Positions 487-40,589 of a stretch of DNA of 49,269 nt are shown here, piece after piece. Location: the IMG/VR virus record IMGVR_UViG_3300004369_000650, positions 1 through 49,269 of that record; one strand, given 5' to 3'. Under the pieces are notes generated by a model. It ran no database searches. It was not told the DNA's origin and saw only the letters and a program-made list of their open reading frames with translations. Position numbers and translations under genes: made by a program. The first letter of the stretch is position 1, and each line of letters starts with the position of its first letter. The stretch is from a virus.

Positions 487-1359
487 TCAGGTTCCCCATG
501 CGTTGCCGAAGATGTCAACGTGGAGTCTTGGCGTATACCGCCATCCTCGCTCCATTGCCAAAGTGGCAACTCGCTTTGCGTTTTCTTTGTATTCATCATA
601 TCTACCCCCCAATGGCATCGTGTACACAGGGCATCCCACACCTGCTTGCCTATATATGTCAACAGCTCGAGTAACTTCATCAACATCATTGCTGTCAGCA
701 ACGACAAACTTAAGGTACAAATCACTGTTAGGCAAACTATTGTAAGAAGAAACAATTTCAGGGCAGATAGCATCATCCCAAAGTTCTCCCGATACCGATA
801 GTTTCGGACTACATGAGAAAGTGAACTGTATTTTGTTTTGAGAATTGACAAACTCCACGAAGTCTGGTCTAAGAGCTTGTGTACCATTAGTTTCAAATGT
901 AACATTTTTTAGATCCTGCATTTTTGGATGATTGAATAGTTCAATATAATTCCTTTGCCATCCCAACAAAGGTTCGCCACCGGTAACAATCAAATGTATA
1001 TCTTGACCGGTTTCTAGAGTCCATTTGCCTGTAGGAGTTAATGCAAGTAAACGTTCTACAACTTGATCGGTATCTAGATCTTGCATAAAACGTTTAAATT
1101 CTGGATAGATACTTGCATATGTATCACACCCTGTATGAATAATCGGAAGCTCTTCGAACTCCTTGTACTTATCGATGTTTTTAATAATTACAGCAACTTC
1201 TGGGTTAGGTTCATTTTTATCGTACTGCTCATTACGATCTCTGCCGAACTTCTTACAACGGAAATTACAACCAAACATACGTAGGAATACACTCGGTACA
1301 CCTACATACTTGCCTTCACCTTGCACACTGTAAAATGCTTCGCTTAAACGCCATTTCAT
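487..1359 (-). CDS. queE: 7-carboxy-7-deazaguanine synthase (QueE-like radical SAM enzyme)
   Basis: 290 residues. QueE converts 6-carboxy-tetrahydropterin to 7-carboxy-7-deazaguanine. The N-terminus shows the family signature SEAFYSVQGEGKYVG and FLRMFGCNFRC, the GGEP motif (VTGGEPLLGW) and the C-terminal HVDIFGNAWGT. The cluster cysteines are unusual: C-x3-C is followed by the third Cys (HTGCDTYAS) only after 42 residues, so an insertion separates the third ligand. This differs from the compact motifs of bacterial QueE. The start at 1359 was preferred over an upstream in-frame start because it gives the family N-terminus and has a GGAG box in the end of queD, 4 bases upstream. It follows queD in the same operon. 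A second frame stays open after its stop (see findings). Confidence 0.9.
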   Translation of the reverse strand: MKWRLSEAFYSVQGEGKYVGVPSVFLRMFGCNFRCKKFGRDRNEQYDKNEPNPEVAVIIKNIDKYKEFEELPIIHTGCDTYASIYPEFKRFMQDLDTDQVVERLLALTPTGKWTLETGQDIHLIVTGGEPLLGWQRNYIELFNHPKMQDLKNVTFETNGTQALRPDFVEFVNSQNKIQFTFSCSPKLSVSGELWDDAICPEIVSSYNSLPNSDLYLKFVVADSNDVDEVTRAVDIYRQAGVGCPVYTMPLGGRYDEYKENAKRVATLAMERGWRYTPRLHVDIFGNAWGT

Positions 1360-1363
1360 TATA

Positions 1364-1840
1364 TTAATCTCCGTACTTGTGTCGTTGTGTCGAAAAAGGA
1401 GTATAGATTGCTGAGTTAGCACCGTGTTCACTACACTCTACACTTTCGCACCAGCAACGATCGTTAGTTGCTTCTCTAATTAGTTTGTCGGCAAAACGCC
1501 ATGCATGTTCAGCAAACTTTTCTACTCCAACACCATCAAACTCACGCACTTCGCAGAGATCTAAATCTTGTAGTTTATAAAACTCAGCCTTATGTGGATC
1601 GTTTACATCAATGCAGGTCTTGTGGTCAAAACTATCTTCTAACCAAGCCTTCAAAGGTTTAAGTCCACCGAAGTCTACTGCCCAGTTCTTGTTGTCTAAA
1701 TTAGTGCATCCAAATGTAAATCTAAATGCTAGACTGTAACCATGTAGCAAATGACAGTGCGAATGATCTGCATTGGGTTGTCTAAATACTGCTGATAAGC
1801 CAATATTGTGTCCATATGTTTTTGTTGAGTAATGTGGCAT
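1364..1840 (-). CDS. queD: 6-carboxy-5,6,7,8-tetrahydropterin synthase (QueD-like)
   Basis: 158 residues of the 6-pyruvoyl-tetrahydropterin synthase fold. It makes carboxytetrahydropterin from 7,8-dihydroneopterin triphosphate, the step after FolE. The active-site stretch is NADHSHCHLLHGYS: catalytic Cys29 and the HG motif are present, but the second His of the usual HGH is Tyr. The C-terminal VECSEHGANSA carries the expected Glu and His. As I recall, an alphaproteobacterial QueD subfamily also has HGY and the following NWAVDFGGLK stretch, so the Tyr is probably native and hints at host lineage. It directly follows the 1841-2416 gene and precedes queE. Confidence 0.9.
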   Translation of the reverse strand: MPHYSTKTYGHNIGLSAVFRQPNADHSHCHLLHGYSLAFRFTFGCTNLDNKNWAVDFGGLKPLKAWLEDSFDHKTCIDVNDPHKAEFYKLQDLDLCEVREFDGVGVEKFAEHAWRFADKLIREATNDRCWCESVECSEHGANSAIYTPFSTQRHKYGD

Positions 1841-2658: not shown

Positions 2659-3149
2659 TCGTCCTTTTCAGCTTTGTTAATTTCAATAAAACTATAATCA
2701 GAACTAAACTCACTGCCTAGGTTTTCTATGCAAGACGCAAATCTCACACTTTTGTGCCAAACTTCATTCCATCGCTGTGTACCATTTGGATGACAACCAC
2801 TTTCCCAATCCTGTTTAATCCAGTTGAATGTAGCACCAGTATCGTTGATATCATCAATGATTAGAATATTTTTACCTTCGTAGCCATGTCCCATTTGGAA
2901 CTCTCCAAATGCATCTTCTGCCATCCAAAGATTGCTTTCGTTATCGCTATTCTCTCCGACATCACGCAACCTTACATCTAGTGTGTGCATTTTAATGCCA
3001 GTTAAGTGACTCATCAGTACGGCAGGAATTAAACCCCCGCGGGTAATACCTACAATATAATCGGGTCGCCATTGGTCTTTGAACATCTGAAAAGAGATGC
3101 GTGTAACAGCTTCTCGGATATCGATGTCACTTAGGTAACGCTTGTTCAT
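2631..3149 (-). CDS. phosphoribosyltransferase (type I PRTase fold)
   Basis: 172 residues. ILIIDDINDTGATF is the PRPP-binding motif of type I phosphoribosyltransferases, and YIVGITRGGLIPAVLMSHL is the preceding substrate-loop region, closest in style to xanthine/hypoxanthine-type enzymes. The likely job is base salvage, joining a purine or purine analogue to PRPP. In this operon the base could be a 7-deazaguanine precursor, which is an inference. The start at 3149 was chosen because it makes an ATGA overlap with the stop of the cupin gene; an ATG five codons upstream is the alternative. Confidence 0.85.
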   Translation of the reverse strand: MNKRYLSDIDIREAVTRISFQMFKDQWRPDYIVGITRGGLIPAVLMSHLTGIKMHTLDVRLRDVGENSDNESNLWMAEDAFGEFQMGHGYEGKNILIIDDINDTGATFNWIKQDWESGCHPNGTQRWNEVWHKSVRFASCIENLGSEFSSDYSFIEINKAEKDEWIVFPWEH

Positions 3150-3610
3150 TTGTTTAATCTCCATGCAAAATACTTGTCAAACTGCATCCATACACCATGA
3201 ACATCAAAACCCCAGTCCCGTCGCTTAGGTCCTGGCATAAACAATGTCCAACAAGTTATATCAGGTTCTAGTTCTACACGGTGGTAGCTATTGGCAGGGC
3301 ATAATCTAAAGTGGCCAGGACCTCGCCAAATCCGCTTGGTTATCAAAGACCCGTCAGCCTTGCGCGGCAACGATTCATCTTCAGGAACCACTTCCCAATA
3401 GCCACCACTTAGTATCAATGTGGCGTAGGGCCACGGATGGTCATGCAGATCATCAGGATCTCCTTTTAAAAACTTGTGCAGGAATATGTTAAACGGGAAC
3501 CGATTTCTATCTTTAAGAAATAGATAGTAACGTTCTAGATAAGGTTCGTTTTCAAGTCTATCATAGATAATACGTCTACGTCCTAGCTTTTCAAACAGAC
3601 TAGCGAGCAT
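3146..3610 (-). CDS. cupin-like protein
   Basis: 154 residues. FLKGDPDDLHDHPWPYATLILSG... is the first cupin motif with H-x-H metal ligands and a downstream acidic position; RGPGHFRLCPANSYHRVEL supplies the second motif with its His. These mark a small metal-binding beta-barrel. Start 3610 overlaps the end of folE by 11 bases and has AAGGG upstream. Small cupins include isomerases, dioxygenases and sugar-binding forms, and nothing here fixes the reaction. It sits between folE and the phosphoribosyltransferase, so a role in the pterin/deazaguanine branch is possible. Confidence 0.7.
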   Translation of the reverse strand: MLASLFEKLGRRRIIYDRLENEPYLERYYLFLKDRNRFPFNIFLHKFLKGDPDDLHDHPWPYATLILSGGYWEVVPEDESLPRKADGSLITKRIWRGPGHFRLCPANSYHRVELEPDITCWTLFMPGPKRRDWGFDVHGVWMQFDKYFAWRLNK

Positions 3611-4289
3611 GAGCAAACCCTTGCTGTAGTTTAATATTGTCCATGAATTCCTTCTTGGTACCGGGATCGTTATTAAACGCACCTTTAAGCACAGTGGTTT
3701 GTGTCAGACTGCTTGATGCCATAATGCCTCGGTTTTCACAACACCCGTGCGTCGCTTGAATGTAAACACCCACGTCTTCACTGCCGGTAGCTTTCATAAT
3801 CTCTTTAGCGATATCCATTGCAAGTTCTTCTTGCAGTGTACCACGACGGGAGCACCATTGTGCGATACGTGTATACTTGCTTAGTCCGATCAGTGTGTCT
3901 GCGGCAATAATACCAATATAAGCAACACCACGCACCGGTTGGTGATGATGGCTACACATACTGTTTAGCTCACTGCGAACCACCAGCATACCATCATATC
4001 TATCATTGGTATGATTAGGAAATGCTGTTGCGTCTGGCTTTGGATCATAGCGTCCACTCATGATCTCTTTAACATACATCTTAGCAAGACGTCTTGGTGT
4101 ATTTTGACTGTTGGGATCGTTGAAGCGATCTATTACTAAACTGTCCAGTACTGCTTCAAACTTTTCAGTGATCTCATCGATCAGAAGTGCTTTCTCGCCT
4201 TCTTCAATAAATTCGCTAATGTTGTCGCCAGCCCAGTATCGTCCTCGATTAGATTCGATACGCTGACGGATAGTTTCACTTATACTCAT
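3600..4289 (-). CDS. folE: GTP cyclohydrolase I
   Basis: 229 residues, the usual length. It opens GTP to dihydroneopterin triphosphate, the entry to folate and to 7-deazaguanines. Zinc ligands are visible in SMCSHHHQPVRG and HGCCENRGI, and the family stretch GLSKYTRIAQWCSRR is present. The N-terminus is phage-like (SISETIRQRIES). It is the first gene of the operon that contains queD and queE and lies behind a strong sigma70-type promoter at 4338-4366. The leader carries AACTAGGAG six bases from the ATG, a block shared with the leaders at 41213 and 41924. Confidence 0.95.
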   Translation of the reverse strand: MSISETIRQRIESNRGRYWAGDNISEFIEEGEKALLIDEITEKFEAVLDSLVIDRFNDPNSQNTPRRLAKMYVKEIMSGRYDPKPDATAFPNHTNDRYDGMLVVRSELNSMCSHHHQPVRGVAYIGIIAADTLIGLSKYTRIAQWCSRRGTLQEELAMDIAKEIMKATGSEDVGVYIQATHGCCENRGIMASSSLTQTTVLKGAFNNDPGTKKEFMDNIKLQQGFAHAR

Positions 4290-7362: not shown

Positions 7363-8049
7363 TTATTCGTCTCTATTACCCAATAAACTCAAAAGCATTT
7401 GGAATAGATTGATAAAGTTAAGGTACAAGCTCATTGATGTGCTGATAGCAAATTTAGCCAATTCATCGGTTGGAGAATTAGCACTTAAAAATGCAGTTTT
7501 TGCATTTTGGGTATCATAAGCAGTTAATCCTGTAAAGATAAGAACTCCGATGATACTTACTGTAAATTGTAGTGCAGAGCTTGCTAGGAAGATGTTTACT
7601 ACACTTGCAATAATAATACCGATTAGTCCAATCAGTAAGAAACTACCCCAACCGCTGATATCTTTCTTAGTGGTGTAACCGTAAATACTTGCTCCTGCAA
7701 ATGTTGCCGCAGTGATAAAAAACACCTGTGCAATACTTGCCGCAGTATAAATTGCAAATACTGTACTAAGGCTTACACCCATTAGTGCTGTGAATACATA
7801 ATAGAAGTTTCTTAAGAATTCAAAACTCCAATTTTTTCCAGCAAGACTATACCAAAAGATCATACCAAGTGGCGCCAGGATGAACAGCCATAAAGCCGAT
7901 CCCATTGCTGCCATTGCACCAGTAGCATATGTTAGGTAAGCAGTAACTCCGCTTAACCCAATACCAAGCGCAACATTATTATAAATTGCCAACATAAACT
8001 GACGCAGGTATTCGTCATATTGTGTGCGGACTTCAGTAATTGTACTCAT
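7363..8049 (-). CDS. Bax inhibitor-1 family membrane protein (YccA/TMBIM-like)
   Basis: 228 residues, about the usual length, with roughly seven hydrophobic segments. GASIYGYTTKKDISGWGSFLLIGLIG and TGLTAYDTQNAKTAF match the family's GYTTKrDLs...G.FLfmgLiGl and G.iAYDTQ.I signatures, including the conserved Asp of AYDTQ. Members form pH-sensitive Ca2+ leak channels or, in bacteria, interact with FtsH. It has its own consensus-type early promoter. A virus might use it to calm host membrane stress or proteolysis; that is an inference. It is unexpected in a phage and may have come from a host yccA/ybhL-type gene. Confidence 0.9.
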   Translation of the reverse strand: MSTITEVRTQYDEYLRQFMLAIYNNVALGIGLSGVTAYLTYATGAMAAMGSALWLFILAPLGMIFWYSLAGKNWSFEFLRNFYYVFTALMGVSLSTVFAIYTAASIAQVFFITAATFAGASIYGYTTKKDISGWGSFLLIGLIGIIIASVVNIFLASSALQFTVSIIGVLIFTGLTAYDTQNAKTAFLSANSPTDELAKFAISTSMSLYLNFINLFQMLLSLLGNRDE

Positions 8050-13243: not shown

Positions 13244-14377
13244 TCAATTTTTTAAGTGGCTAAGGTTATGTAACTCTACTTTCATCTCTCCGTTGACTAT
13301 TTCTGGCGAATTAATTATTTCTACTAGTTCCCCAAAGTTTGGATGATTGGGTAACCAAACTGCATGGTCGCTAAAAGTATTAGTTCCGCCTATTGTAAAA
13401 GTACCCCAATCAGTGATCTTTTGCAACTCGATTACATCTACACCTAGTTGATTACCTATGCGTACAAATTTGATGATATCTTTATAGTTAGATTTCTGTA
13501 CTACAAAGTTTAAGATAACATTCATATTGGGGTTGAATTCATTTTTCCAATCTACGATGTATTTTGTACTTTCTAGTAACTTGTTCCAACTGCCTCCCCT
13601 TCTAGTAATATTATACACTTCAGGGGAGCCTGCGTCAAAACTAATTTTAAATCGTCGAACAAAATTATGAATGCCTGTTAAATTTTTCCAATGATCTTTA
13701 ACTAGTATGCCATTGGTAACAATTTCTATAACTCGATCATGTAGGACATCCGGATCGATTTTTCCAAGTAATTGCCTATAGATATGACTAGCAAACGGAT
13801 CGCCATCTCCGCTTACAGTGAATTGCAACTCATGTTGATGATTGTTGATCAATTTAGCAATATGCTCTGACATACGCATACGTAGGTCAAAACTTTCGCC
13901 TTCTTTGTGAAAAATAAGTTCTGTTCGGCAGCTAGGACAACGAAGATTACAACTATTATCTATAGCAAAAATGATTCTAGTAACAGTGTCGGGCGTGTTC
14001 AAATTATCTCGAAGTTCGTTGTTTGCAATAATATGACAAGTTCGTTCGTCGCAGTATCTGTAACTCCCGTCAACGATTGATGCTTGAATTTCTTGTGCTT
14101 TAGGACTTTTAACAATGTCATCTAAACTATTAAAGTCCATGATGTTGCCAACAGGTATCGGTAACCATGCTTGACATATGCAAACAAAACATTCTCCGTA
14201 GCGGTCAATAGTAACATCATTAAATGGACTATGACAGTACTTTCCTTTTAGACCTAAGTCTTTTTGAAAGTTCATGCCAATAGAATCATAACGAAACTTG
14301 CTATCTCTACCCAAGTCGTCAACTGTTAGAGGTATACGTTCTAATGTTTTATAACTTTGGATATCTACATTAGTCAC
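13244..14377 (-). CDS. radical SAM protein with N-terminal SPASM-like cysteine cluster
   Basis: 377 residues. FAIDNSCNLRCPSCRTELIF holds the CxxxCxxC 4Fe-4S/SAM motif, followed by a glycine-rich FTVSGDGDPFAS and FKISFDAGSPEVY, as in peptide- or substrate-modifying radical SAM enzymes. Before the core, YCHSPFNDVTIDRYGECFVC and YCDERTCH form a Cys-rich block resembling a SPASM auxiliary cluster, which normally lies after the core. The GTG start follows the polymerase stop immediately, with GGAAG at a good distance. It probably shares the dsbA-polymerase transcript. The substrate is unknown; it is not QueE-like. Confidence 0.8.
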   Translation of the reverse strand: MTNVDIQSYKTLERIPLTVDDLGRDSKFRYDSIGMNFQKDLGLKGKYCHSPFNDVTIDRYGECFVCICQAWLPIPVGNIMDFNSLDDIVKSPKAQEIQASIVDGSYRYCDERTCHIIANNELRDNLNTPDTVTRIIFAIDNSCNLRCPSCRTELIFHKEGESFDLRMRMSEHIAKLINNHQHELQFTVSGDGDPFASHIYRQLLGKIDPDVLHDRVIEIVTNGILVKDHWKNLTGIHNFVRRFKISFDAGSPEVYNITRRGGSWNKLLESTKYIVDWKNEFNPNMNVILNFVVQKSNYKDIIKFVRIGNQLGVDVIELQKITDWGTFTIGGTNTFSDHAVWLPNHPNFGELVEIINSPEIVNGEMKVELHNLSHLKN

Positions 14378-17044
14378 TTAATCTTCCCATTCAAATAGGT
14401 TACCGATAGTTGTTTTGATATTGGTGGCTTCTGCGATATTCCAATCCAGCACACCTAGTAGGTTTTCCACTTTCTGGTCCACAATGGTAGATTCCATGTT
14501 GTTATCATCAAACGGAAGTTCTTTGTACCAATTTGGAATATGACTTTCATCTGTAGGATATGCTACACTGGTATACCCTAAAGGATTTGGTTTGAGCTTG
14601 CACACAATAACTTTCATACCGTCCATGATCTCTTGCGAGTATTTGTCACTGTGCATCTTTTTCAGATTGTTCCAGTTCATTGCCGCACGTACATGACCAG
14701 GCATGTTGGCTTTACCTTCACGTTTTTCTTTGGCAGTATACATGGTCAAGTTGTTAACACGTTTAGGTGTGCCTTTTTCCCAAGCAGGACGTTCAGCGAA
14801 CAGAATCTTAAAGTCACGCACCATCTTGATAACGTGATCTTTTGCATCGTCTTTGGTCAGCGTAGTAAGCAAGATTTCACTTAGAAAGTCTTGCACTACT
14901 TTGGGCGTGTCACTGCGTTTGAGGTCAAGTCCCATGGCTTTCACTTTGCCAACATTGCCGTGGGTATCAAGTCTTACGCCTTCGTTATCGTAGATCAATA
15001 CAGCATAGCGTTTCTTTTTAATAAACAAACCCTTGCTGGCTACCAGTTCACGACCTGCTTTGATGATTGACCCCATCTCTCTTGGGCAGTGACACGCCCG
15101 TTCCATAAACGCAGGGAATGAATCGTTAACTTGGTCCGCTATGGTGTCGTAGAGTTGGACACAAATATCACGATTCCATTCCATGCTACCAGACTCTGCA
15201 TCTTTCTTTAGCATAGGCCATGCACTAAAGTAAACAGAGTCTGTGTCCCCGTAGATGATGGATTCACCTACGTGGTCATACTTACCAGTGATACATTCGT
15301 TAACAAATGCATCCATGTGCTTTGCAATCACTCGCCCGGTAAGTGTAGTGCTTTGACCAATGCGATGGTCAAAGAAACGACAGTGGGGGTTAAGAATAGC
15401 GCCATACAAACTATTCAAGTTAATCTTCTTAACCAGCTGTCGTTTATCCCAGAACGCTCGTTCTTCTTTGTCAGTACACTCACGCATCTTAGCCTGTAGC
15501 TCTTTACGTTCCGCATACCAACGTTCCAACAAGCCTGGAATAATTCCTTTAAGGTCATAACGGAAAATGGTTCCGTTTGCACTTAATGTCCATGGTTGAT
15601 TACTGTCAAAAATTAATCGCCATACGTTAGCCGCTGACGTTGTGTCTTCTGTGCCATTTTCCCAATCAATAGTAATTTCTACACTCGGGTCCATGTCCAT
15701 CACAGCATTGTATTCAAGTGTGCCGAACATGTTTTCCCAAGCATCTGCAAAACTCTTGCCCTCATTTATTCGAGCATTGATTTTATTGTTGGTCATGGTT
15801 GGACGCAGTTGTCCTACAACAGTTTCTGGACCCATGTTTAGCGCACGAATGCAACTAGGATATAGACTGTTCAAGTCAATGGCGCCAATGTATTCGTGTG
15901 TACCTCGTTTCGGATACGCAACATACGCACCTGCGGCTTGTGTTTCTACGCCGTCTTGCTTTCTACTACGACTAGGAACAACCATACCACGTTCGTGTGC
16001 TTCATTAATGATTGCTTGTTCTGTAACCGCAACCGCACCCATTGTGGTTGGAAGTAGCACAGTATTGTCGTGTGCAAGTTCGTTAGCTAGATCAAGAAAA
16101 CGTAGTTTCTTGTCCATCTTAACCAACAGCAAAACGTCTTGTCTGTTATAGTCGATAAATGTTTCAAAGTCTCTGTTATAGAGTTGATCCAGTGTGCCTT
16201 CATAAGCAACTTTGCGTTCGTCAAGTTCATACTCGCCAATGGCGTCTAGACTGTAGCTGTGACGTTCTTCGTAGGTATACTTACGATAGAGTTGCATATA
16301 GTCCATATGCACCCGCCCAATCAAGTCAAATGTAATGTTCTCAGCACCAAATCGTTCGAATGTACGCTTCTTAGGAAACTGACCCCATAAGCAAAACTTG
16401 CGTGTATCATCTTTGCTGAGTACACGGCGGGTACGCATAACGAGATAGGGAATATCATAACCTTCCGAGTTCCAGCCACTCAGCACATCTGCGTCGTCGA
16501 TCAAATCTAAGAATGTTGAAATGAGGTCTTCTTCTCTATCAAACAGATAGGTGTTGTCGAAGTTTTTGCATAGATCCTGTGCAGTTTCCATACTCATACT
16601 CTTAGGAGGAATAGCCAGTGTGATTAACTGTTCCATCCAGTCAAGATAAAGTGTGATTGCAGTTACTTTGTTAAACGGATCTTCAGGCGAACTATATCCT
16701 CTCTCTGGGTCAAAGTCCACCTCGATGTCAAAGAAACATGTTTGTAACTTAGGCGAGGGTTTGCCTACGTAGTTTTCTGCTAGACAACGTAGCACAGGAT
16801 TGATGTCACTTTCATGCAGTTGTTTGCCTGAGCTAATCTTTAGTTCTTTTTGAAACTCTTTACCGTTGCGTGTGATGAAACGTGTACACGGAGTACCATA
16901 GATTGTTTTATGTTTGCCCTTAGGATCGTCATAATAGAAAACATAATTGGCATGGTAACTTTGGTATTCTCGTTTACCTTCTACTCGCTCCACAACATGA
17001 ATTTGGTCACGTTCTCTGTCAAATAGTGCATCAATATAGCTCAT
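14378..17044 (-). CDS. 43: family B replicative DNA polymerase (gp43-like)
   Basis: 888 residues, near T4 gp43 (898). Exonuclease motifs: CFFDIEVDFD (Exo I, about residue 105), LSGWNSEGYDIPYLV (Exo II) and YNRQDVLLLVKMD (Exo III). Polymerase motifs: GAIDLNSLYPSCIRALNMGP (A), KKINLNSLYGAI (B) and IYGDTDSVYFS (C), with the two catalytic Asp. All key residues are present, so it should be a proofreading replicase. No split or intron is seen, unlike some T4-like polymerase genes. It ends against the radical SAM gene and overlaps the preceding small membrane protein gene by 14 bases. Confidence 0.97.
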   Translation of the reverse strand: MSYIDALFDRERDQIHVVERVEGKREYQSYHANYVFYYDDPKGKHKTIYGTPCTRFITRNGKEFQKELKISSGKQLHESDINPVLRCLAENYVGKPSPKLQTCFFDIEVDFDPERGYSSPEDPFNKVTAITLYLDWMEQLITLAIPPKSMSMETAQDLCKNFDNTYLFDREEDLISTFLDLIDDADVLSGWNSEGYDIPYLVMRTRRVLSKDDTRKFCLWGQFPKKRTFERFGAENITFDLIGRVHMDYMQLYRKYTYEERHSYSLDAIGEYELDERKVAYEGTLDQLYNRDFETFIDYNRQDVLLLVKMDKKLRFLDLANELAHDNTVLLPTTMGAVAVTEQAIINEAHERGMVVPSRSRKQDGVETQAAGAYVAYPKRGTHEYIGAIDLNSLYPSCIRALNMGPETVVGQLRPTMTNNKINARINEGKSFADAWENMFGTLEYNAVMDMDPSVEITIDWENGTEDTTSAANVWRLIFDSNQPWTLSANGTIFRYDLKGIIPGLLERWYAERKELQAKMRECTDKEERAFWDKRQLVKKINLNSLYGAILNPHCRFFDHRIGQSTTLTGRVIAKHMDAFVNECITGKYDHVGESIIYGDTDSVYFSAWPMLKKDAESGSMEWNRDICVQLYDTIADQVNDSFPAFMERACHCPREMGSIIKAGRELVASKGLFIKKKRYAVLIYDNEGVRLDTHGNVGKVKAMGLDLKRSDTPKVVQDFLSEILLTTLTKDDAKDHVIKMVRDFKILFAERPAWEKGTPKRVNNLTMYTAKEKREGKANMPGHVRAAMNWNNLKKMHSDKYSQEIMDGMKVIVCKLKPNPLGYTSVAYPTDESHIPNWYKELPFDDNNMESTIVDQKVENLLGVLDWNIAEATNIKTTIGNLFEWED

Positions 17045-17264
17045 GATATACTAACCCAATTATATAAACTATTGTAAGACAAAAGTTAAGAACAATCAAG
17101 CTCTTTTCTTTCCAGAGTATACCTGTAGCAGTCCACACAGCATTGCTGAATATGAATAAGAAGTGGTGCAAGTATAGATGGGGGACGAAACTTGCCAGTA
17201 GTGCGGCAACTATCAAACCTCCTGTTCCTAACCAGGCCACCCATTGATATGGTTTAGTATCCAT
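17031..17264 (-). CDS. small three-helix membrane protein
   Basis: 77 residues with about three hydrophobic segments (WVAWLGTGGLIVAALLASF, HHFLFIFSNAVWTATGIL, SLIVLNFCLTIVYIIGLVY). The WKEKSLIVLN stretch before the last helix resembles small YgjV/PnuC-like proteins, but the match is weak. It is coupled by overlaps to both dsbA (one base) and the polymerase (14 bases). Function unknown. Confidence 0.7.
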   Translation of the reverse strand: MDTKPYQWVAWLGTGGLIVAALLASFVPHLYLHHFLFIFSNAVWTATGILWKEKSLIVLNFCLTIVYIIGLVYHELY

Positions 17265-17518
17265 TAAAGAGTGCGACCCACAGTTTCTAGAATCTCATTT
17301 AGAACTTCGTGTTCCTCATTGGTGTCAGTTAATTTGCTTTTGTGAGCAATAGAGATAGCTTTCTTTAGAACGCTTGGCTTAATTTCAAACTCCTCTGCAA
17401 TAGCCTTAACAGTATCATTGAGACCAGCATTGAGATCTTCAACTTCTTGTTTGACTTGAATGCCTTCATTAATTAGCTGAGTTAGCTTGGCCTTTTGTTC
17501 TGGATTAAACATTGACAT
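17264..17518 (-). CDS. dsbA: double-stranded DNA-binding protein DsbA-like
   Basis: 84 residues, like T4 DsbA (about 89). The pattern EVEDLNAGLNDTVKAIAEEF, then IKPSVLKKAISIAHKSKLTD and ending EILETVGRTL, matches the marine T4-like DsbA proteins I recall. T4 DsbA binds double-stranded DNA near late promoters and aids late transcription; it is not the thiol oxidase of the same name. It is first in the operon that leads to the polymerase, behind a sigma70-type promoter. Two in-frame ATGs (17518 and 17512) are possible; AAAGGAG fits both. Confidence 0.8.
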   Translation of the reverse strand: MSMFNPEQKAKLTQLINEGIQVKQEVEDLNAGLNDTVKAIAEEFEIKPSVLKKAISIAHKSKLTDTNEEHEVLNEILETVGRTL

Positions 17519-17543: not shown

Positions 17544-17572
17544 GTATACTTAATTTTCAAGGTTTCGTCAAC
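17544..17572 (-). promoter_or_regulatory. sigma70-type promoter for dsbA-polymerase operon
   Basis: Minus strand TTGACG (17572-17567), 17 bp spacer, TATACT (17549-17544), about 25 bases before the dsbA start. The -35 overlaps the last codon of the first cassette gene. Confidence 0.8.
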
Positions 17573-18755
17573 CCTCATATTTTTCCAAAAAGTAACGTAT
17601 GGCTTCTGTAACACCAGGTTCCCAAGGATACCAACCACAGTTGTTGTGGTCATAGTAGAACGGACTAATATCGAGTAGCCGTCTTTCTTTGTCGCTCGCT
17701 TGACTAGATATTTTAGCTTTATGATAATAATAGCGGTCATTTTTATCAAACTTATACAAATAATCCCGAGCTTGCCATTTGGTTCCTCTTTCACCTAAGG
17801 ATACCTTTTCGTAGAATGTTTGAAGATTACTATAACTCCATTGTTGCATACGTTCAGAATGGAAGAATACTTCTCGTATAAATCGTTCATACAAATCTTT
17901 ACGTAACCCGAGCTTGTAGTTTTTGACAAGATGTTGCAACGGACGTTGCATTGAGAATTGATACTTCAAATTAAAATAGTGCCACCACCAAAAGTCTGCG
18001 ATAGTGTATGCGTTTTCTAGATTGGCTTCAGCAAAGTTGTCTGCAACTTTGTTAACATACCATTCTCCAAATTCTGGATGTGCCCACTTGCTCTGTTGAC
18101 GGTCATAAAAAGTTTTGATGAGTTGTCTATTTTCATTCGCCGGCAATAAATGTTTCTTATCGTCTATTAGATGTTGAAAGGCACCAATACTAGGCCCATA
18201 CAAACAATCGCCTGGATCGCCGTGTAGTAGCATATGTTTTTCTAAAAACTCATTACTAACATCAATTTCATTGAGATGAACGATGTTAAGTTTATCAGTA
18301 ATATGTTGACGATAAAAGTCTGGATTTTCCAAATAACTGTCGGTGTTCATAACCACAGTTAATATACTTCGGTCAGCTTCACTTAATGTTTGCAAGAACG
18401 CGGCAAGCACGCCTGAGCTATCAATACCACCACTCCACATGATGTAGATATCTCTATCCGTGTCTCGAGCTTTTTGGAATAATTCTATGGCACGATCATT
18501 TAAGATGTCTTCCAACCTATCATTGATGTAGCGTAGTTTAGGAAATGCCCATAAGTCGTTACGATTAGGTGTGTTCCACGGTGTAGTAAATTTGCCAAAT
18601 CTAGGACGGATGTCTTTGACTCCGATATTTAAACGACTATAGCGTTGCCAATGCTTGCCCATTGGGTTATCGCATTTAACATACTCGATTAGCTGGTTAT
18701 CAACCATGCATGCTCGAGTAGCAATTTCATTCATATGTTCTTCAGTTGTTTGCAT
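17568..18755 (-). CDS. asparagine-synthetase-like ATP pyrophosphatase, cassette copy A
   Basis: 395 residues. WSGGIDSS (about 108-114) is the PP-loop of N-type ATP pyrophosphatases, and HGDPGDCLYGPS (about 178-189) lies where asparagine synthetases have SGxGADElFgGY. Asparagine synthetase normally has an N-terminal glutaminase domain; here the first ~100 residues are different and hold no catalytic Cys2. It would adenylate a carboxylate for attack by an amine or ammonia. Other blocks shared with copies B and C are FTTPW, DFWWWHYFNLK, QRPL, WSYSN and RDYLYKFDKND. It overlaps its partner gene by 14 bases. An alternative ATG lies at 18734. Substrate unknown. Confidence 0.8.
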   Translation of the reverse strand: MQTTEEHMNEIATRACMVDNQLIEYVKCDNPMGKHWQRYSRLNIGVKDIRPRFGKFTTPWNTPNRNDLWAFPKLRYINDRLEDILNDRAIELFQKARDTDRDIYIMWSGGIDSSGVLAAFLQTLSEADRSILTVVMNTDSYLENPDFYRQHITDKLNIVHLNEIDVSNEFLEKHMLLHGDPGDCLYGPSIGAFQHLIDDKKHLLPANENRQLIKTFYDRQQSKWAHPEFGEWYVNKVADNFAEANLENAYTIADFWWWHYFNLKYQFSMQRPLQHLVKNYKLGLRKDLYERFIREVFFHSERMQQWSYSNLQTFYEKVSLGERGTKWQARDYLYKFDKNDRYYYHKAKISSQASDKERRLLDISPFYYDHNNCGWYPWEPGVTEAIRYFLEKYEG

Positions 18756-19422
18756 CTAACCACTCTACTATTTTAGGTGTGATATAACGTTGCGGATGCG
18801 TCGTAATTGGAATTTCTGCAAATGCTCGTTTGATATCTTGTTTTATATCTTTAAGTTCTTTTTCAAGGTCGATATTGTACAGTATGTCGAATACATTGCC
18901 TTTGTACTGCCTTAGGTATTTCATCATACTGAAATTATAGTTGATTTCAAATTGAATTAAGTCTTGCAATGGTTCATCTTTAGGCATCAACAGTTTGCAA
19001 AAATCTCCCAGTTGCTCGAGTGCAATCTTTTGTGTGCGACTGCGTGTTCTTGTGACTTCTGCAAAAAATCCAAACTCTTTATTGAACTCTCGAATAAAAT
19101 CTCTATAAAATTCTGCTATCTCACAAAATTTTTCATGTTGAGGATTTTTTCCATCGCTAGCAACTAATTTGATCTTGTCATCGCTCTTGGGATGAATGTC
19201 AGTGCTGATGTTAAGCCGATTAGCATCAGCAAACCCTAACTTTTTATATCGTCCTTTTCCTAGCAACCCTTCTCTGTAATTCTGTACGTCACTAACACGC
19301 ACTGCATAAAACAACATGCGATGACTAAACAAAAACTGTATTTGTTTTAACAGTTCGTAGCTACGATCAGTAATTACAAATTTATTTGCTCTTACGTTAT
19401 ATAATGCATACAGTTCAGCCAT
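18742..19422 (-). CDS. cassette partner protein, copy A
   Basis: 226 residues, no known family. The N-terminus LYALYNVRANKFVITDRSYE, then LLKQIQFLF and LFYAVRV, shares with copies B and C a pattern of short strands, Y-x(3)-K-x-[IV]-Q-[FL] and a closing strand. The rest is helical and variable (AEFYRDFIREFNKEFGF, KDIKQDIKRAF). It starts 8 bases inside the end of copy B's enzyme gene and ends inside copy A's enzyme gene, so the pairing is translationally coupled. It probably selects the substrate or completes the enzyme, standing where the glutaminase half would be; this is an inference. Confidence 0.75.
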   Translation of the reverse strand: MAELYALYNVRANKFVITDRSYELLKQIQFLFSHRMLFYAVRVSDVQNYREGLLGKGRYKKLGFADANRLNISTDIHPKSDDKIKLVASDGKNPQHEKFCEIAEFYRDFIREFNKEFGFFAEVTRTRSRTQKIALEQLGDFCKLLMPKDEPLQDLIQFEINYNFSMMKYLRQYKGNVFDILYNIDLEKELKDIKQDIKRAFAEIPITTHPQRYITPKIVEWLDANN

Positions 19423-20608
19423 TGTACCTATCCAATAATTTAGTTGAAATCTCAGCTACAGCCGTGTCAAACCAGTAGTGGCCCTTCCATGATTGGTCAA
19501 AATAAAATGGTAAATCTGCTGTACGTCTAGAGTCAATATCAGCAGGTGCTCCTGCTGTTTTAATTTTAGTTGAGTAATATATTTCATTGCGATCAAGCTC
19601 GAAAATATAATCGCGAGCAAAGTGCTTGTGTGTGTTTCTTTCCAAACCAATTAAACGGTCCAAATTGGTATAACTCCACATCTGCCAGCTTGTTGTATTA
19701 AAATATGTATTTCGAGCATAGTCAGCTATTTGTTCTTGAGTAAACTCGGTTGTAGGATCTCGTCTGCTAAAGTACAACGGACGTTGGCAACTAAACTCCC
19801 ATTTAAAATTATAGTAAGTCCACCACCACCAATCTGCAACAGTTTTAACATTTTCAGGTGCAACTTCCTCTAGGTTGTTGCTAACACGATCTACAAACCA
19901 ATCACCGAACCCTTCTGTGTAATGAGGATTACTAGTGTGCATTTGGCAACTTTGTTTTAGTTCTGCAATATGGTTTTTCCAAGGCTGTTTATGCCTGCCG
20001 CCTGATATGAACCGTGCATAAGCAGGAACACTTGGGCCTTGTAAGCAATCTCCCGGGTCTCCGTGTATTACAATGTGCGTATTTAAAAATTCAGGTGTTA
20101 AATCAAATTCTTGATAATCCATACATTGCAATTTGTTGCTGATGTGATCAACATAGAATTGTGTATTTTCTAAAATACTGGTAAAATTACAACAAACTAC
20201 AATAAGGTCTCGATCTTCGGGAGACATATTTTTAATAAAACTACTCAACACAAATGTCGAATCGATGCCACCACTCCATAGCACTAGTAGCTTACGTTGT
20301 GTGCGCCTAGCTTCGTCTAGCAATTCTACTGCTCTGGCATTAGCAATATCGTCAAACGAGTCTGGTGTGTATGCCAATGCAGGCGCCGCAAATTCAGATT
20401 GACTAACACTGTTCCACGGATTATTAAATGTTCCAGTCCTACATCGCCAGTCGCTTACTCCAATAATGGTACGTATAATTCCAAACCATTTCTGTGCATC
20501 GGGATTGCGAAACCCTTTGTGATCTGGAATCATTATTGCTTGCACCATTCTAGATGATGCAAGCTCTTCAGTAATTAACCTATCAAAGTATTCTTCTACA
20601 CTAGACAT
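19415..20608 (-). CDS. asparagine-synthetase-like ATP pyrophosphatase, cassette copy B
   Basis: 397 residues, paralogue of the 17568 and 21447 genes. SGGIDST lies at about 112-118 and HGDPGDCLQGPS follows. Further shared blocks are FNNPW, DWWWWTYYNFKWEFS, QRPLYF, MWSYTNLDRL and FARDYIFELDRNEIY. The start at 20608 was chosen over an ATG five codons upstream because AAGGA lies at a proper distance. It overlaps its partner by 8 bases. Divergence from the other copies is high outside the blocks, so the duplication is old or the copies were acquired separately. Confidence 0.8.
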   Translation of the reverse strand: MSSVEEYFDRLITEELASSRMVQAIMIPDHKGFRNPDAQKWFGIIRTIIGVSDWRCRTGTFNNPWNSVSQSEFAAPALAYTPDSFDDIANARAVELLDEARRTQRKLLVLWSGGIDSTFVLSSFIKNMSPEDRDLIVVCCNFTSILENTQFYVDHISNKLQCMDYQEFDLTPEFLNTHIVIHGDPGDCLQGPSVPAYARFISGGRHKQPWKNHIAELKQSCQMHTSNPHYTEGFGDWFVDRVSNNLEEVAPENVKTVADWWWWTYYNFKWEFSCQRPLYFSRRDPTTEFTQEQIADYARNTYFNTTSWQMWSYTNLDRLIGLERNTHKHFARDYIFELDRNEIYYSTKIKTAGAPADIDSRRTADLPFYFDQSWKGHYWFDTAVAEISTKLLDRYNG

Positions 20609-21320
20609 TGCGTTTCCTTGCATCGTTTAATGCTTTTAAAGTTACAGCTTCTACTACTTTGCTTTGTCTCTCATTTCCGCCTGCTAGTATGTGTTGGAAC
20701 GATCTCAACTCGTATTGTATTCTGCTAACAATATGATCAGGATTAACTTCTTTAAAATTAGTATTCATTAAAACTTTAAAAAGTTGTCGCTTGTGGTTTT
20801 CAATCGCACCTGAGCTTAACCGTATACGCTCCGATTCGTTCTTAGTAAGTAAGCTAACAAACGGATCGGGTCCCGTTTGCAATAGCAAAAATTTAGAAAA
20901 TTGTTCAACTCCGCCAATCTTTTGATCTAACGCTTTTTGTCTACGTTCCGATAACAAATCAATTCTAACATTGTACTCTGTTAAAAATCTGCATAAAAAA
21001 TAAAAATTCTCTGACAGACGCTTCTGTGCATCTGTAAGTTCTGCAAGCCCAAACTCTTCTCTTAGGCCAATATAGTGATCATCTTTGGTTAGTTTGATTT
21101 GTGACTTATCGGGTTCGAAGAATTTAGACAGTCTGGGTGATGCGGCCCAGTTAAACCGATTGTCGTGTCTGATACTATTAGGCCTACATTCGTATATATC
21201 AAAGTTTACACAGCTAGTAGGGATCTGCGATCCTGTGATGAATTGCACAAGTTTAATTGTGTTATAATCTTTGTTCAACAGCAAGAAGTAATTATCGTGA
21301 AAACTTAATAATCCATACAT
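20601..21320 (-). CDS. cassette partner protein, copy B
   Basis: 239 residues. The N-terminus LLSFHDNYFLLLNKDYNTIK with LVQFITG keeps the partner pattern. The remainder contains FFEPDKSQIKLTKDDHYIGL and long helices (LSENFYFLCRFLTEYNVRID). Its ATG overlaps the stop of the tiny membrane gene at 21320-21445 (TGATG), which argues for this start rather than a longer frame-open N-terminus. GGAAGG lies 14 bases upstream, so re-initiation after the tiny gene is likely. Function unknown. Confidence 0.75.
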   Translation of the reverse strand: MYGLLSFHDNYFLLLNKDYNTIKLVQFITGSQIPTSCVNFDIYECRPNSIRHDNRFNWAASPRLSKFFEPDKSQIKLTKDDHYIGLREEFGLAELTDAQKRLSENFYFLCRFLTEYNVRIDLLSERRQKALDQKIGGVEQFSKFLLLQTGPDPFVSLLTKNESERIRLSSGAIENHKRQLFKVLMNTNFKEVNPDHIVSRIQYELRSFQHILAGGNERQSKVVEAVTLKALNDARKRNV

Positions 21321-21445
21321 CAGCGTAACATATGCCTTCCAAGAGTGTGCCCTGGAGGATTGTGTTGATCTCCAGGCGGAATGATAGTTAATACTATAAC
21401 AGCAGATGCTATGCATGTCAAGACTAAAATTATTGCTGATCTCAT
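21320..21445 (-). CDS. tiny single-pass membrane protein inside the cassette array
   Basis: 41 residues. Residues 4-22 (AIILVLTCIASAVIVLTII) form one transmembrane helix, followed by a Pro/Gly/His-rich tail (PPGDQHNPPGHTLGRH). The start ATG lies one base after the stop of the copy-C enzyme, with AAGGA upstream, and its stop overlaps the start of partner B as TGATG. These overlaps show it is translated. It has no equivalent between copies A and B. A membrane anchor or a substrate peptide are two readings; neither is shown. Confidence 0.7.
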   Translation of the reverse strand: MRSAIILVLTCIASAVIVLTIIPPGDQHNPPGHTLGRHMLR

Positions 21446-21446
21446 A

Positions 21447-22616
21447 TTATCCTTGAAATTCATTTAATAACTCTCGAATAGTATTTTTTAATTTTGGAGA
21501 CTGTGAGTGTCCAACCCAGTTTTTATCATAGACCAATGGAATATTGCTGTCACCGTATGCAGTGTTCAAGTTAGTACGGCGACTGCCTTTAAATTTCTTG
21601 TATTGCCTATATAGTTGATTTTGGTCAACATCAAAAATGTAATCACGCATCAATGGTTTGTAATTGAACGGATCTTGAGCCATACGTTCTATATTGGAAT
21701 AACTCCAGTTTTGAAAATCTTCATTAATATAAAAACAAGTATCGTAATAGTAACGAAACTCTTCAGGAGTAATAGCTTTGTCGACTGTTTTACGTGTAAA
21801 ATAAAACGGACGCAACATACTACCGTGCCATTTAAAGTTTACATAGTGCCACCACCAAAATGCCGCAATAGACTGGGCTTGCTCTAACTGTGGGATAGAT
21901 GATGCTAATTTATTAACATACCATTCGGTCCATCCTGCTGGAACATTTTTGTTGATTCCTACGAAGCTGTTTACTCCGTCTATTAGAGTTCCTATGTTTT
22001 CTCGAAATGGGAGTAGATGTTTTCTGTCGGGTATTAAATTCTGAAAGGCAGCAACAGTAGGTATACTCAAAAGTGCATTAGCAGGGTCTCCGTGTAACAC
22101 GATAGTGTTCTGCAATAATTCTTCCGTCAAATCAAGTTCTAACCAGTTAATGCAGTCAAACTTGTTATGGACAAATTTTTGATAAAAGTAAAAATTTTCG
22201 GCAATAGTGTTTGCACTCATTACAATACTGTAACGATGTTTAAGCTCATTTTCTGGAATGTTTTTAATAAAAGCACTTAGTAATGTGGTGCTATCTATTC
22301 CCCCACTCCACATAATCCAAACTTCTTTATTGTCTCTGCATGCAATTTCGTGCAATTCAATTGCACGTTGGTCGATGATATCACTCAATGATTTGTTTGT
22401 ATATGACAGTTTGGGTAACTGCATATAGTCCAGATGAGTTTGATTAAGCCATGGCGTAGTAAAAGGAAGACTGCGACTACGCAAGTCGTTAAGCATAGGA
22501 ATTGCTTTAAAGGAAAATAGCCAATAGTCGCCGTATTTTCCAAAATCTTCGTTCTCAAATATTCCTGCAATGCAGGTATTATCTACCAGGTAATTAGATT
22601 CGAACACTTCTCTCAT
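21447..22616 (-). CDS. asparagine-synthetase-like ATP pyrophosphatase, cassette copy C
   Basis: 389 residues. SGGIDST at about 104-110. The second motif is altered to HGDPANALLSIPT, losing the Asp-Cys and Gly-Pro of the other two copies, so its chemistry or metal binding may differ. FTTPW, AFWWWHYVNFKWHGSM, LRPFYF, NWSYSNIERM and MRDYIFDVDQNQLY are shared. It overlaps its partner's stop as ATGA. It is the first enzyme of the array in transcription order. Confidence 0.8.
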   Translation of the reverse strand: MREVFESNYLVDNTCIAGIFENEDFGKYGDYWLFSFKAIPMLNDLRSRSLPFTTPWLNQTHLDYMQLPKLSYTNKSLSDIIDQRAIELHEIACRDNKEVWIMWSGGIDSTTLLSAFIKNIPENELKHRYSIVMSANTIAENFYFYQKFVHNKFDCINWLELDLTEELLQNTIVLHGDPANALLSIPTVAAFQNLIPDRKHLLPFRENIGTLIDGVNSFVGINKNVPAGWTEWYVNKLASSIPQLEQAQSIAAFWWWHYVNFKWHGSMLRPFYFTRKTVDKAITPEEFRYYYDTCFYINEDFQNWSYSNIERMAQDPFNYKPLMRDYIFDVDQNQLYRQYKKFKGSRRTNLNTAYGDSNIPLVYDKNWVGHSQSPKLKNTIRELLNEFQG

Positions 22617-23308
22617 TGTTTTGACCTGTCTAGTACTGCATGGGCATGCTTATTTGGATATTCTTGACTTAGGGTAGAAAAGATATTTTGTATATCTAGA
22701 TTAGGTTTACCAAAGTCTAGTGCTAGTATTTTATTTGAAAATGCACCTTTAAGTTTATCTAAAGTGTCGTTAAAGGAAAGTTCGTCGTCGATATCCTTAT
22801 TAAACATTCCTGCCAACATTTTGTCTTTTCCGATAGTCAGTTCACAAAATTCTTGGAACATTCGATAGCCCTTTACAGTATCAGCAAACATTTGCTCAGT
22901 GTGTTTTCTTCTGAGTTCAACTGCATTGTAAAAGTCTTCAATAACATTGCTAACAACTCTTAGATTGGATGCAATTTGTTTTTCTTGCTCTGTGATAGGC
23001 TTTGCAAGTCTGACATGAGTCTCTCTAAGTCTGAAAGGTGCGACATCCAGTTCTACCTGCAATGCAGGAGCGTTATTGGTAGTGAATTCGGTACAGTTAT
23101 GTTCATTAATCTCACGTATTGGTTCTTGTTTCATTTTAGCTTCGACATGATACTTTCGAAGCATTAATTTGTTAACAGGAAGCAAATATAAGAGATCATT
23201 ACGCATATAGTGTAACTGTATGCGTTTGGCAACTTCATAGTCTTGACTAAAAAATAAGAATCGGGCAGAGCTAATCAAACCAAACCCTAATAGATGATCA
23301 CTACTCAT
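22613..23308 (-). CDS. cassette partner protein, copy C
   Basis: 231 residues. The N-terminus LGFGLISSARFLFFSQDYEV, then AKRIQLHYM and LLYLLPV, fits the partner pattern. The middle holds EVELDVAPF-like strands (ALQVELDVAPFRLRETHVRL) and long helices. It is the first gene of the array. No Shine-Dalgarno is seen; the ATG lies inside a 12-bp palindrome ACTCATATGAGT, just 5 bases after a late-promoter-like element, and is enclosed by an 11-bp inverted repeat. Expression may thus be leaderless from the late promoter and blocked in read-through RNA. Confidence 0.75.
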   Translation of the reverse strand: MSSDHLLGFGLISSARFLFFSQDYEVAKRIQLHYMRNDLLYLLPVNKLMLRKYHVEAKMKQEPIREINEHNCTEFTTNNAPALQVELDVAPFRLRETHVRLAKPITEQEKQIASNLRVVSNVIEDFYNAVELRRKHTEQMFADTVKGYRMFQEFCELTIGKDKMLAGMFNKDIDDELSFNDTLDKLKGAFSNKILALDFGKPNLDIQNIFSTLSQEYPNKHAHAVLDRSKQ

Positions 23309-39473: not shown

Positions 39474-40589
39474 ATGAATGAACCTCGCAAAGTCAGATGG
39501 ATCATTGCTCATTTTCCAGTTAAACTATTCATTAGAGCCGCTGAAAAATTCAGAGAAGAACTAAATGTTTTAGCACCTGGTCAATTTGACATTGAGATTA
39601 TCACTGGCATGGGCCAATATCTACAAAAATACGGCAACGAATTGCCAGAAGAGTTTAAAGCAAAACTTCATCAGTTTTCTGTTGACATTCCAGGATTAGA
39701 AGATCCACGTGCATCTATTAAAGAATTTGCGCCAAATCTAACTGACGAAGAAATTGAAGCAATGCTTGACACTAAGCAAGTAAAAGACTTTAACGGTCTA
39801 AAGGGCCGCTGGCAAGCATTTTTTGAAGCTATGAAAGCCGGCGCTTTTGAAATGAGTCAAACTCAAATCAACTTAATTGGCGCTCACCTAGACACAAATA
39901 TGCATGCTATTGACCTTCCATATCTATTCAAAGGACACGATCACGTTGCAGAAGCACTTGATGGTGAAATTGGTATGGAACTCGCTCGTCGTGTTAAGGA
40001 AAAAACAGGTATTGAAGCACTAGGTTATACATACTCTGGTGGTTATCGTATTATTGGTAGTACCGAAGATATTACATGTTTAGACGATCTCGCCGCACAG
40101 AAGTTTATCAGCTTCACAGCACCAAGCACACGTTTCTTTAAAGGTGCTAGCATTGATGCGTTACCAAGATATCGCACAACAGCTGAAGACTTAGGTGATG
40201 TTGCTGAAAACGGTGGTGCTATTGAAACTACATATATTCGTTTCAATGGTAAAAACGTTCTAAAGACCAACCACTCGATGTTTATGACTTCTATCTTAAC
40301 CAGTGAAAACTTCATGAACAGCCTAACTGAAGAACAGAGAGAAGCATTTGTTGAGGCCGCACGCCGTGTTTCTAAAGCAGAACGTGCATGGTCAATAGAA
40401 GATGCTGAAGAATATGAGCGTAAAGCTGAAGAGCGTGGTGTTAAAATTGTTGACATCAGTGCTGAAGACGAAGCAAGACTACGCAAAGCTTCAACCTCAG
40501 TTTACAAGTCTTCAACCTTAGAAAAACTAGGCATCGATCCAACAATCGTTGCTGAAATTATGCATATGGGTAAGAAGTATAAAAACTGA
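39474..40589 (+). CDS. TRAP-type (DctP-like) solute-binding protein without signal peptide
   Basis: 371 residues. The DctP-family pattern is visible: LPYLFKGHDHVAEALDGEIG, GIEALGYTYSGGYRIIGSTE (substrate-binding domain, with the Arg that normally grips the carboxylate), KFISFTAPSTRFFKGASIDA, and YIRFNGKNVLKTNHSMFMT. Unlike the family, it starts MNEPRKVRWIIAHFPVKLF with no cleavable signal, so it should stay in the cytoplasm or in the particle. AAGGAG lies 7 bases before the ATG. It is followed by a strong terminator. A function in host metabolite capture needs export that is not visible. Confidence 0.85.
   Translation: MNEPRKVRWIIAHFPVKLFIRAAEKFREELNVLAPGQFDIEIITGMGQYLQKYGNELPEEFKAKLHQFSVDIPGLEDPRASIKEFAPNLTDEEIEAMLDTKQVKDFNGLKGRWQAFFEAMKAGAFEMSQTQINLIGAHLDTNMHAIDLPYLFKGHDHVAEALDGEIGMELARRVKEKTGIEALGYTYSGGYRIIGSTEDITCLDDLAAQKFISFTAPSTRFFKGASIDALPRYRTTAEDLGDVAENGGAIETTYIRFNGKNVLKTNHSMFMTSILTSENFMNSLTEEQREAFVEAARRVSKAERAWSIEDAEEYERKAEERGVKIVDISAEDEARLRKASTSVYKSSTLEKLGIDPTIVAEIMHMGKKYKN

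Follow-up and report, generated by a model that had tools for sequence, protein, structure and literature searches.

A stretch of viral DNA of 49,269 nucleotides (IMG/VR record IMGVR_UViG_3300004369_000650, positions 1 to 49,269; hereafter the window), whose source is a T4-like virus infecting bacteria, carries at 17568-23308 on the minus strand an operon of three partner-enzyme pairs together with a 47-amino-acid (aa) membrane-type open reading frame (ORF). Each pair consists of a partner, P (226-239 aa), and an enzyme, E (389-402 aa). Judged by sequence, the P–E pairs appear to form a real and conserved two-protein family of ATP-dependent ligases that has had no name, and the assigned chemistry is probable. 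The probability that each pair is a carboxylate-activating amide ligase in which P gives the specificity, with three classes serving different clients, is put at about one half. The genes of the operon are as follows.

22613-23308, minus strand: P_C, partner of pair C, 231 aa, identified by the P profile and trees; ATGA-type overlap of 4 nt with E_C.
21447-22616, minus strand: E_C, AsnB-like glutaminase-less synthetase, 389 aa, identified by its motifs; carries the class-C motif HGDPANALLS.
21320-21463, minus strand: 47-aa ORF with a hydrophobic helix and the tail PPGDxxxPPGHTLGRHMLR; conserved in relatives.
20601-21320, minus strand: P_B, partner of pair B, 239 aa; start corrected, the listed ORF having run to 21416.
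19415-20623, minus strand: E_B, AsnB-like glutaminase-less synthetase, 402 aa (397 from an internal ATG), identified by its motifs; the copy modelled.
18742-19422, minus strand: P_A, partner of pair A, 226 aa, identified by the P profile; the copy modelled.
17568-18755, minus strand: E_A, AsnB-like glutaminase-less synthetase, 395 aa, identified by its motifs.

The order of the pairs on the minus strand is thus P_C, E_C, P_B, E_B, P_A, E_A. The initial annotation had described three highly diverged enzymes with shared motifs, each coupled to a partner by overlapping genes, and these points were borne out. All three enzyme ORFs are open, and SGGIDS, HGDP, WWW.Y.N.K, RP, WSY.N, RDY and D.N are invariant among them. 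Overlaps were measured within every pair (14 nt for P_A/E_A, 8-23 nt for P_B/E_B and 4 nt for P_C/E_C), and E_B and P_A overlap by 8 nt. Identity to the first copy is 34-37% for E and 18-21% for P, and a protein search of the whole record with E_B gave exactly three places and no fourth copy. The 47-aa ORF fills the only gap in the operon, between E_C and P_B, overlapping the end of E_C and being TGATG-coupled to P_B; it is kept in three relatives (L005, L007, L008) and in a looser form in L010. A strong sigma-70-like site at 21421-21393 sits within this conserved ORF and was not taken as a promoter. The proposal of late-type control was not upheld, since the late-promoter consensus TATAAATA is seen twice in the window, neither time near the operon, against 4.4 occurrences expected by chance.

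The relationship of E to known enzymes was addressed by motif, profile and fold comparisons. In an alignment of 67 diverse E homologues, W-SGGIDS[ST], E152, G188, G196, WW267-268, Q314, W316, K333 and K353 are near-invariant, and in most of the sequences conservation of E152, the G[DE]..D..G block and K333/K353 reaches 85-100%. The second motif of E, GDP..DC.[YQ]G, aligns with the GE.ADELFGG position of AsnB. Its general form G[DE]..D.L.G is conserved, with the Asp kept in classes A and B and replaced by Asn in class C. The alteration noticed earlier in copy C (HGDPANALLS for HGDPGDCLYG) is real; HGDPAN, present in four genomes, is a conserved trait of class C and not decay. The C-terminus of E is exactly Gly in 45 of the 50 group-1 proteins (groups defined below), mostly as [YF]-x-Gly-COOH, a feature not seen in group 2. 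There is no N-terminal glutaminase domain: the P-loop of E_B begins at residue 117 and the preceding segment is too short for one.

E is not a Pfam or PHROG family, its matches being sub-threshold or weak and lying around the P-loop. PF00733 scores 13.6 bits against E_A (cut-off 21) and does not match E_B or E_C; its best E-value among the 67 homologues is 0.0017. Profile comparison related E to the AsnB profile with 96% probability in the P-loop region, and the cellular branch of E to AsnB with 93% over 261 columns across the synthetase domain, compared with 41% over 24 columns of the P-loop only for Escherichia coli QueC. The AlphaFold model of E_B has a predicted local distance difference test score (pLDDT) of 94. 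In a Foldseek search of the PDB with this model, the sole matches at E<=0.001 were two entries of human asparagine synthetase; E. coli AsnB, LarE, TsnB9 and beta-lactam synthetase were further fold matches. The TM-scores are low, about 0.3, so they give the fold class and not the details, and the active-site geometry is argued from motifs. By motif and profile, E is an AsnB-type synthetase domain of the N-type ATP pyrophosphatases, glutaminase-less as first proposed, and is not a member of the AsnB family by Pfam threshold or domain make-up. With the AsnB/ASNS family (PF00733, including beta-lactam synthetase and TsnB9) it shares the P-loop SGG.DS, the GE..D.LFG motif and the C-terminal lysines; it differs in lacking the N-terminal nucleophile (Ntn) glutaminase domain, in its new N-terminal segment, in the window copies falling below the Pfam cut-off and in having a small partner gene upstream.

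The partner matches no Pfam or PHROG family; a single hidden Markov model joins all three copies. The model of P_A (pLDDT 91) shows a short N-terminal beta-beta-alpha-beta unit followed by long helices. No convincing PDB match to this fold was obtained by profile or by structure, designed or generic helical proteins alone being returned. In BFVD four unnamed proteins of uncultured phages lead the matches (best E 2e-5). The initial annotation had recognised that the proposal would fail if P were an unrelated phage protein occurring alone. In the loci fetched, every P homologue found by profile lies directly upstream of an E gene, and a scan with P_A alone returned contigs already known and no others. 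In about 30 group-1 loci P is directly upstream of E, with the genes overlapping or nearly so. Tree distances of P and E over 29 pairs correlate at r=0.78, and the same classes A, B and C appear in both trees. When genes were re-paired within multi-copy genomes, one of 10,368 arrangements, the real pairing, reached r=0.78 (mean 0.42). As this control fixes the genome background, the agreement reflects pair-specific co-divergence and duplication of the pair as a unit; that the real pairing alone reaches 0.78 marks each P as the cognate partner of its E. The co-divergence also gives indirect support to a putative stable complex of the two proteins. A dedicated partner kept in three versions, as the initial annotation had it, is therefore supported pair by pair, and the trees point to three ancient pair classes that have been separately maintained. 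P evolves faster than E in all three classes. Between the window and L007, nonsynonymous divergence (dN) is 0.11-0.57, well below synonymous divergence (dS), which is saturated. A second partner family, which precedes E in L129, L130 and L131, has its N-terminal ~60 residues in common with P, a weak relationship (hhalign E=1.4e-3). Homology of P to c5, a partner in group 2, was considered and was not detectable.

A mechanism can be proposed on this basis. E would bind ATP in the SGGIDS loop and activate a carboxylate as an acyl-adenylate with loss of pyrophosphate, following AsnB chemistry, and the acyl group would then be passed from E to an amine. As E has no glutaminase, the nitrogen would come from free ammonia or from an acceptor amine and not from glutamine. 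P may act as a docking or specificity subunit, or may itself be the acceptor; its N-terminal beta-beta-alpha-beta unit is shared, whereas the helical C-terminal domain is variable. Classes A, B and C would persist side by side because their clients differ. In the lasso-peptide cyclase, an AsnB-like fold serves to form peptide amides. Lasso clusters require a recognition element, a protease and a precursor; none of these was recognised here, where P has no Pfam or PHROG match and no cluster-specific models were run.

The distribution of the family was assessed in IMG/VR, which gave 76 loci (group 1, L004-L041; group 2, L042-L079). P–E units, one to three per genome, occur in dozens of contigs, mostly by a T4-like DNA polymerase. 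In most group-1 loci they lie just upstream of a phrog_639-type gene and the polymerase. The window has the same layout, with a short gene between the two:

17264-17518, minus strand: small protein, phrog_12534 / phrog_639 ('transcriptional regulator'), kept directly downstream of E in relatives.
14378-17044, minus strand: T4-like DNA polymerase, the conserved downstream neighbour of the operon.

In group 2, other partner genes precede E, often c5, and a cupin gene (c13) is sometimes present. With E_B, a group-1 E (L018) and c5 as queries, GenBank phages gave no matches. Among cultured phages one carrier was found, Pseudomonas phage Cygsa01; its two distant homologues of E (PP179332.1 11421-13570; L126 12688-14837) are annotated as mnmA, probably a misannotation. 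Cellular E genes occur in Bacteroidetes, Planctomycetes, Verrucomicrobia, Gammaproteobacteria and candidate phyla. They are often accompanied by a cupin that shows homology to c13 (hhalign E 7e-51) and by small upstream genes; among the latter, g4 is a homologue of c5 (E about 1e-6).

Further genes were observed at single loci. In two candidate-phylum bacteria (L080, L083), YcaO and SagB-type nitroreductase genes lie a few kb from g4 and E. A reading of the system as one for ribosomally synthesised and post-translationally modified peptides was set aside, most other cellular loci showing no sign of these genes. Around E in L049 and L130 there are two more PP-loop proteins (c17, c18), a porin-like protein, an Asp/Asn hydroxylase and a TctC receptor. 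In L048 (3-1811) an upstream sequence continues in frame into E through collagen-like GPTG repeats, either a real fusion or an assembly artefact.

Among possible clients of the ligase, a phage protein is the most likely, and it is the neighbourhoods of distant E homologues that point in this direction. In four other phage lineages these adjoin Gp38-type or glycine-rich adhesins, an S74 fibre or a poly-proline fibre. Cygsa01 has baseplate genes, two fibre-like genes and a glycine-rich adhesin-like protein followed by its two E homologues. In L078 a glycine-rich protein scoring above the Pfam Gp38 adhesin cut-off is followed by a probable oxygenase, a PP-loop gene, a probable fibre-assembly gene and E; L061/G011 has an S74 fibre protein, two E genes, an adhesin-like protein and a third E; and a prophage-like locus of Xanthomonas albilineans has a Baseplate J gene, a poly-proline ORF, g17 and E. 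Pfam matches apart, the roles of these neighbours come from reading their sequences. Asp/Asn hydroxylase, 2-oxoglutarate oxygenase and cupin genes occur near some E genes. These associations suit modification of a virion protein. Signs of the particle or surface modification suggested earlier thus come from other phages; beside the operon of the window none was seen.

Several observations weigh against the proposal of a specificity-directed protein ligase. What the sequences establish is the family, the ATP-site motifs, the pairing, the co-divergence and the conservation; activity, complex formation, adenylation, amide formation and the client are inferred. The fold matches of E_B leave the geometry of the predicted active site to be read from motifs, and in class C the second motif has another residue in place of its conserved Asp. 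No adhesin is found around the operon of the window. A six-frame search for Gp38 over whole records found nothing and is uninformative, as it missed even the L078 Gp38 detected by hmmscan. The tail-fibre linkage is confined to distant branches of E, where a shared site at which extra genes insert could account for it. At the cellular E loci, no partner homologous to P was found. Finally, the cupin beside cellular E and a DctP-like binding protein that lacks a signal sequence beside some viral E genes also fit a small-molecule substrate.

This last point leads to a possible, if rather unlikely, alternative, in which E–P is a small-molecule ligase of auxiliary metabolism that makes an amide of an organic acid delivered by the DctP-like protein. 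Signal-less DctP-like genes lie less than 300 bp downstream of E on the same strand in G009/G022, G011 and G018 and directly upstream of E in G020, the cellular E is paired with a cupin gene, and SSF symporters adjoin some loci. The window has a DctP-like gene as well (39474-40589), but it is 16 kb away on the opposite strand. A protein partner present in three co-diverging copies would be unusual for a metabolic ligase, and no complete pathway surrounds E–P. The DctP-like (TRAP transporter) proteins were observed more widely: besides the window, where the gene is on the plus strand, they were seen with no visible signal peptide in L027, L048, L060, L061, L079, L127, L128 and L131. They start like KIRWVIAHEPI.LFLRAA and in other phages are often directly beside E. 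ORFs resembling the DctQ/DctM subunits of a TRAP permease and a second DctP were seen in large phage contigs (L136 19066-19898, L128 1-1306).

A second alternative, raised by the initial annotation, concerns 7-carboxy-7-deazaguanine (CDG), which E–P would amidate to 7-amido-7-deazaguanine (ADG) in place of QueC, for DNA or tRNA modification. The window encodes the CDG pathway:

487-1431, minus strand: QueE-like radical S-adenosylmethionine (SAM) protein (7-carboxy-7-deazaguanine synthase).
1364-1840, minus strand: QueD-like 6-pyruvoyl/carboxy-tetrahydropterin synthase.
3600-4289, minus strand: FolE, GTP cyclohydrolase I (match 3633-4166).

A cysteine-dioxygenase-like gene (phrog_4786; 3146-3682, minus strand) adjoins FolE. 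These genes make CDG production likely, and CDG could serve E as a substrate. Six group-1 records (G000-G004, G006) carry both FolE and QueE, and five of these also carry QueD. For QueC, the search gave nothing above E=0.001 in G000-G004 (up to 228 kb) but did recover the gene in G016, which serves as its positive control. QueC itself uses ammonia and a PP-loop, as E would, and the two are alike in PP-loop ATP-dependent amide formation. E differs in having no PF06508 (QueC) match in the window (G000), another second motif, the partner P and, in its alignment, no conserved cysteine motif to correspond to the C-terminal Cys zinc motif of QueC, and its profile is closer to AsnB than to QueC. The CDG genes lie 13-16 kb from E, three diverged copies and a partner are left unexplained, and the host can supply QueC. 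No tRNA-guanine transglycosylase or DpdA was seen with PF01702, which is a weak test. E occurs in the complete genome of Cygsa01 without FolE, QueD or QueE and in G016 beside a real QueC; if phage-made CDG is needed, CDG is therefore not the general substrate. What stands of the idea is circumstantial, namely the three CDG genes and the missing QueC in window-type contigs, and replacement of QueC is considered unlikely.

PP-loop enzymes also link CDG to a protein partner in anti-phage defence, where Cap9 joins CDG to an N-terminal glycine, and QatB–QatC, a helical partner with a PP-loop enzyme, are together enough for defence against some phages (PMC13279940). By analogy E may attach a small carboxylic acid such as CDG either to P or to a virion protein that P selects, the specificities being three in parallel, as the phage's own counterpart of Cap9/QatBC modification; such a protein-conjugation system is a speculative prospect and an unlikely one. 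The narrower form, in which CDG or another acid is conjugated onto protein with P itself the target, is quite improbable. The layout of a two-protein unit, a PP-loop ATP enzyme with a mostly helical partner, is the same as in QatB–QatC, and CDG genes are present in the same genome. Against this, no N-terminal glycine is conserved in P, the model shows no long flexible tail at the N-terminus, and the missing PF06508 match places E outside the QueC family by profile. P–E further differs from QatB–QatC and Cap9 in being phage-borne, AsnB-type in place of QueC-type, devoid of conserved cysteines and arranged in tandem triplicate. That the three pairs are subunits of one hetero-oligomer, or are non-catalytic, is very improbable: the genes are adjacent and coupled and the altered second motif of class C is conserved, but many relatives have a single pair, so three are not needed for function.

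Elsewhere in the window, a radical SAM/SPASM gene (13244-14377, minus strand) lies between the DNA polymerase and a methyltransferase-like gene, and a Bax1-I family membrane protein (E 3e-52) is encoded at 7363-8049 on the minus strand.

The E proteins would represent a branch of ATP-dependent ligases that has gone without a name and has been missed by Pfam and PHROGs. The branch is widespread among T4-like phages of aquatic habitats, occurs in diverse bacteria as well, and in this phage group is paired with a partner of unseen fold. If the client is a virion protein, these phages would modify their own proteins with dedicated enzymes. If the client is CDG, the missing QueC step of these phages would be explained.

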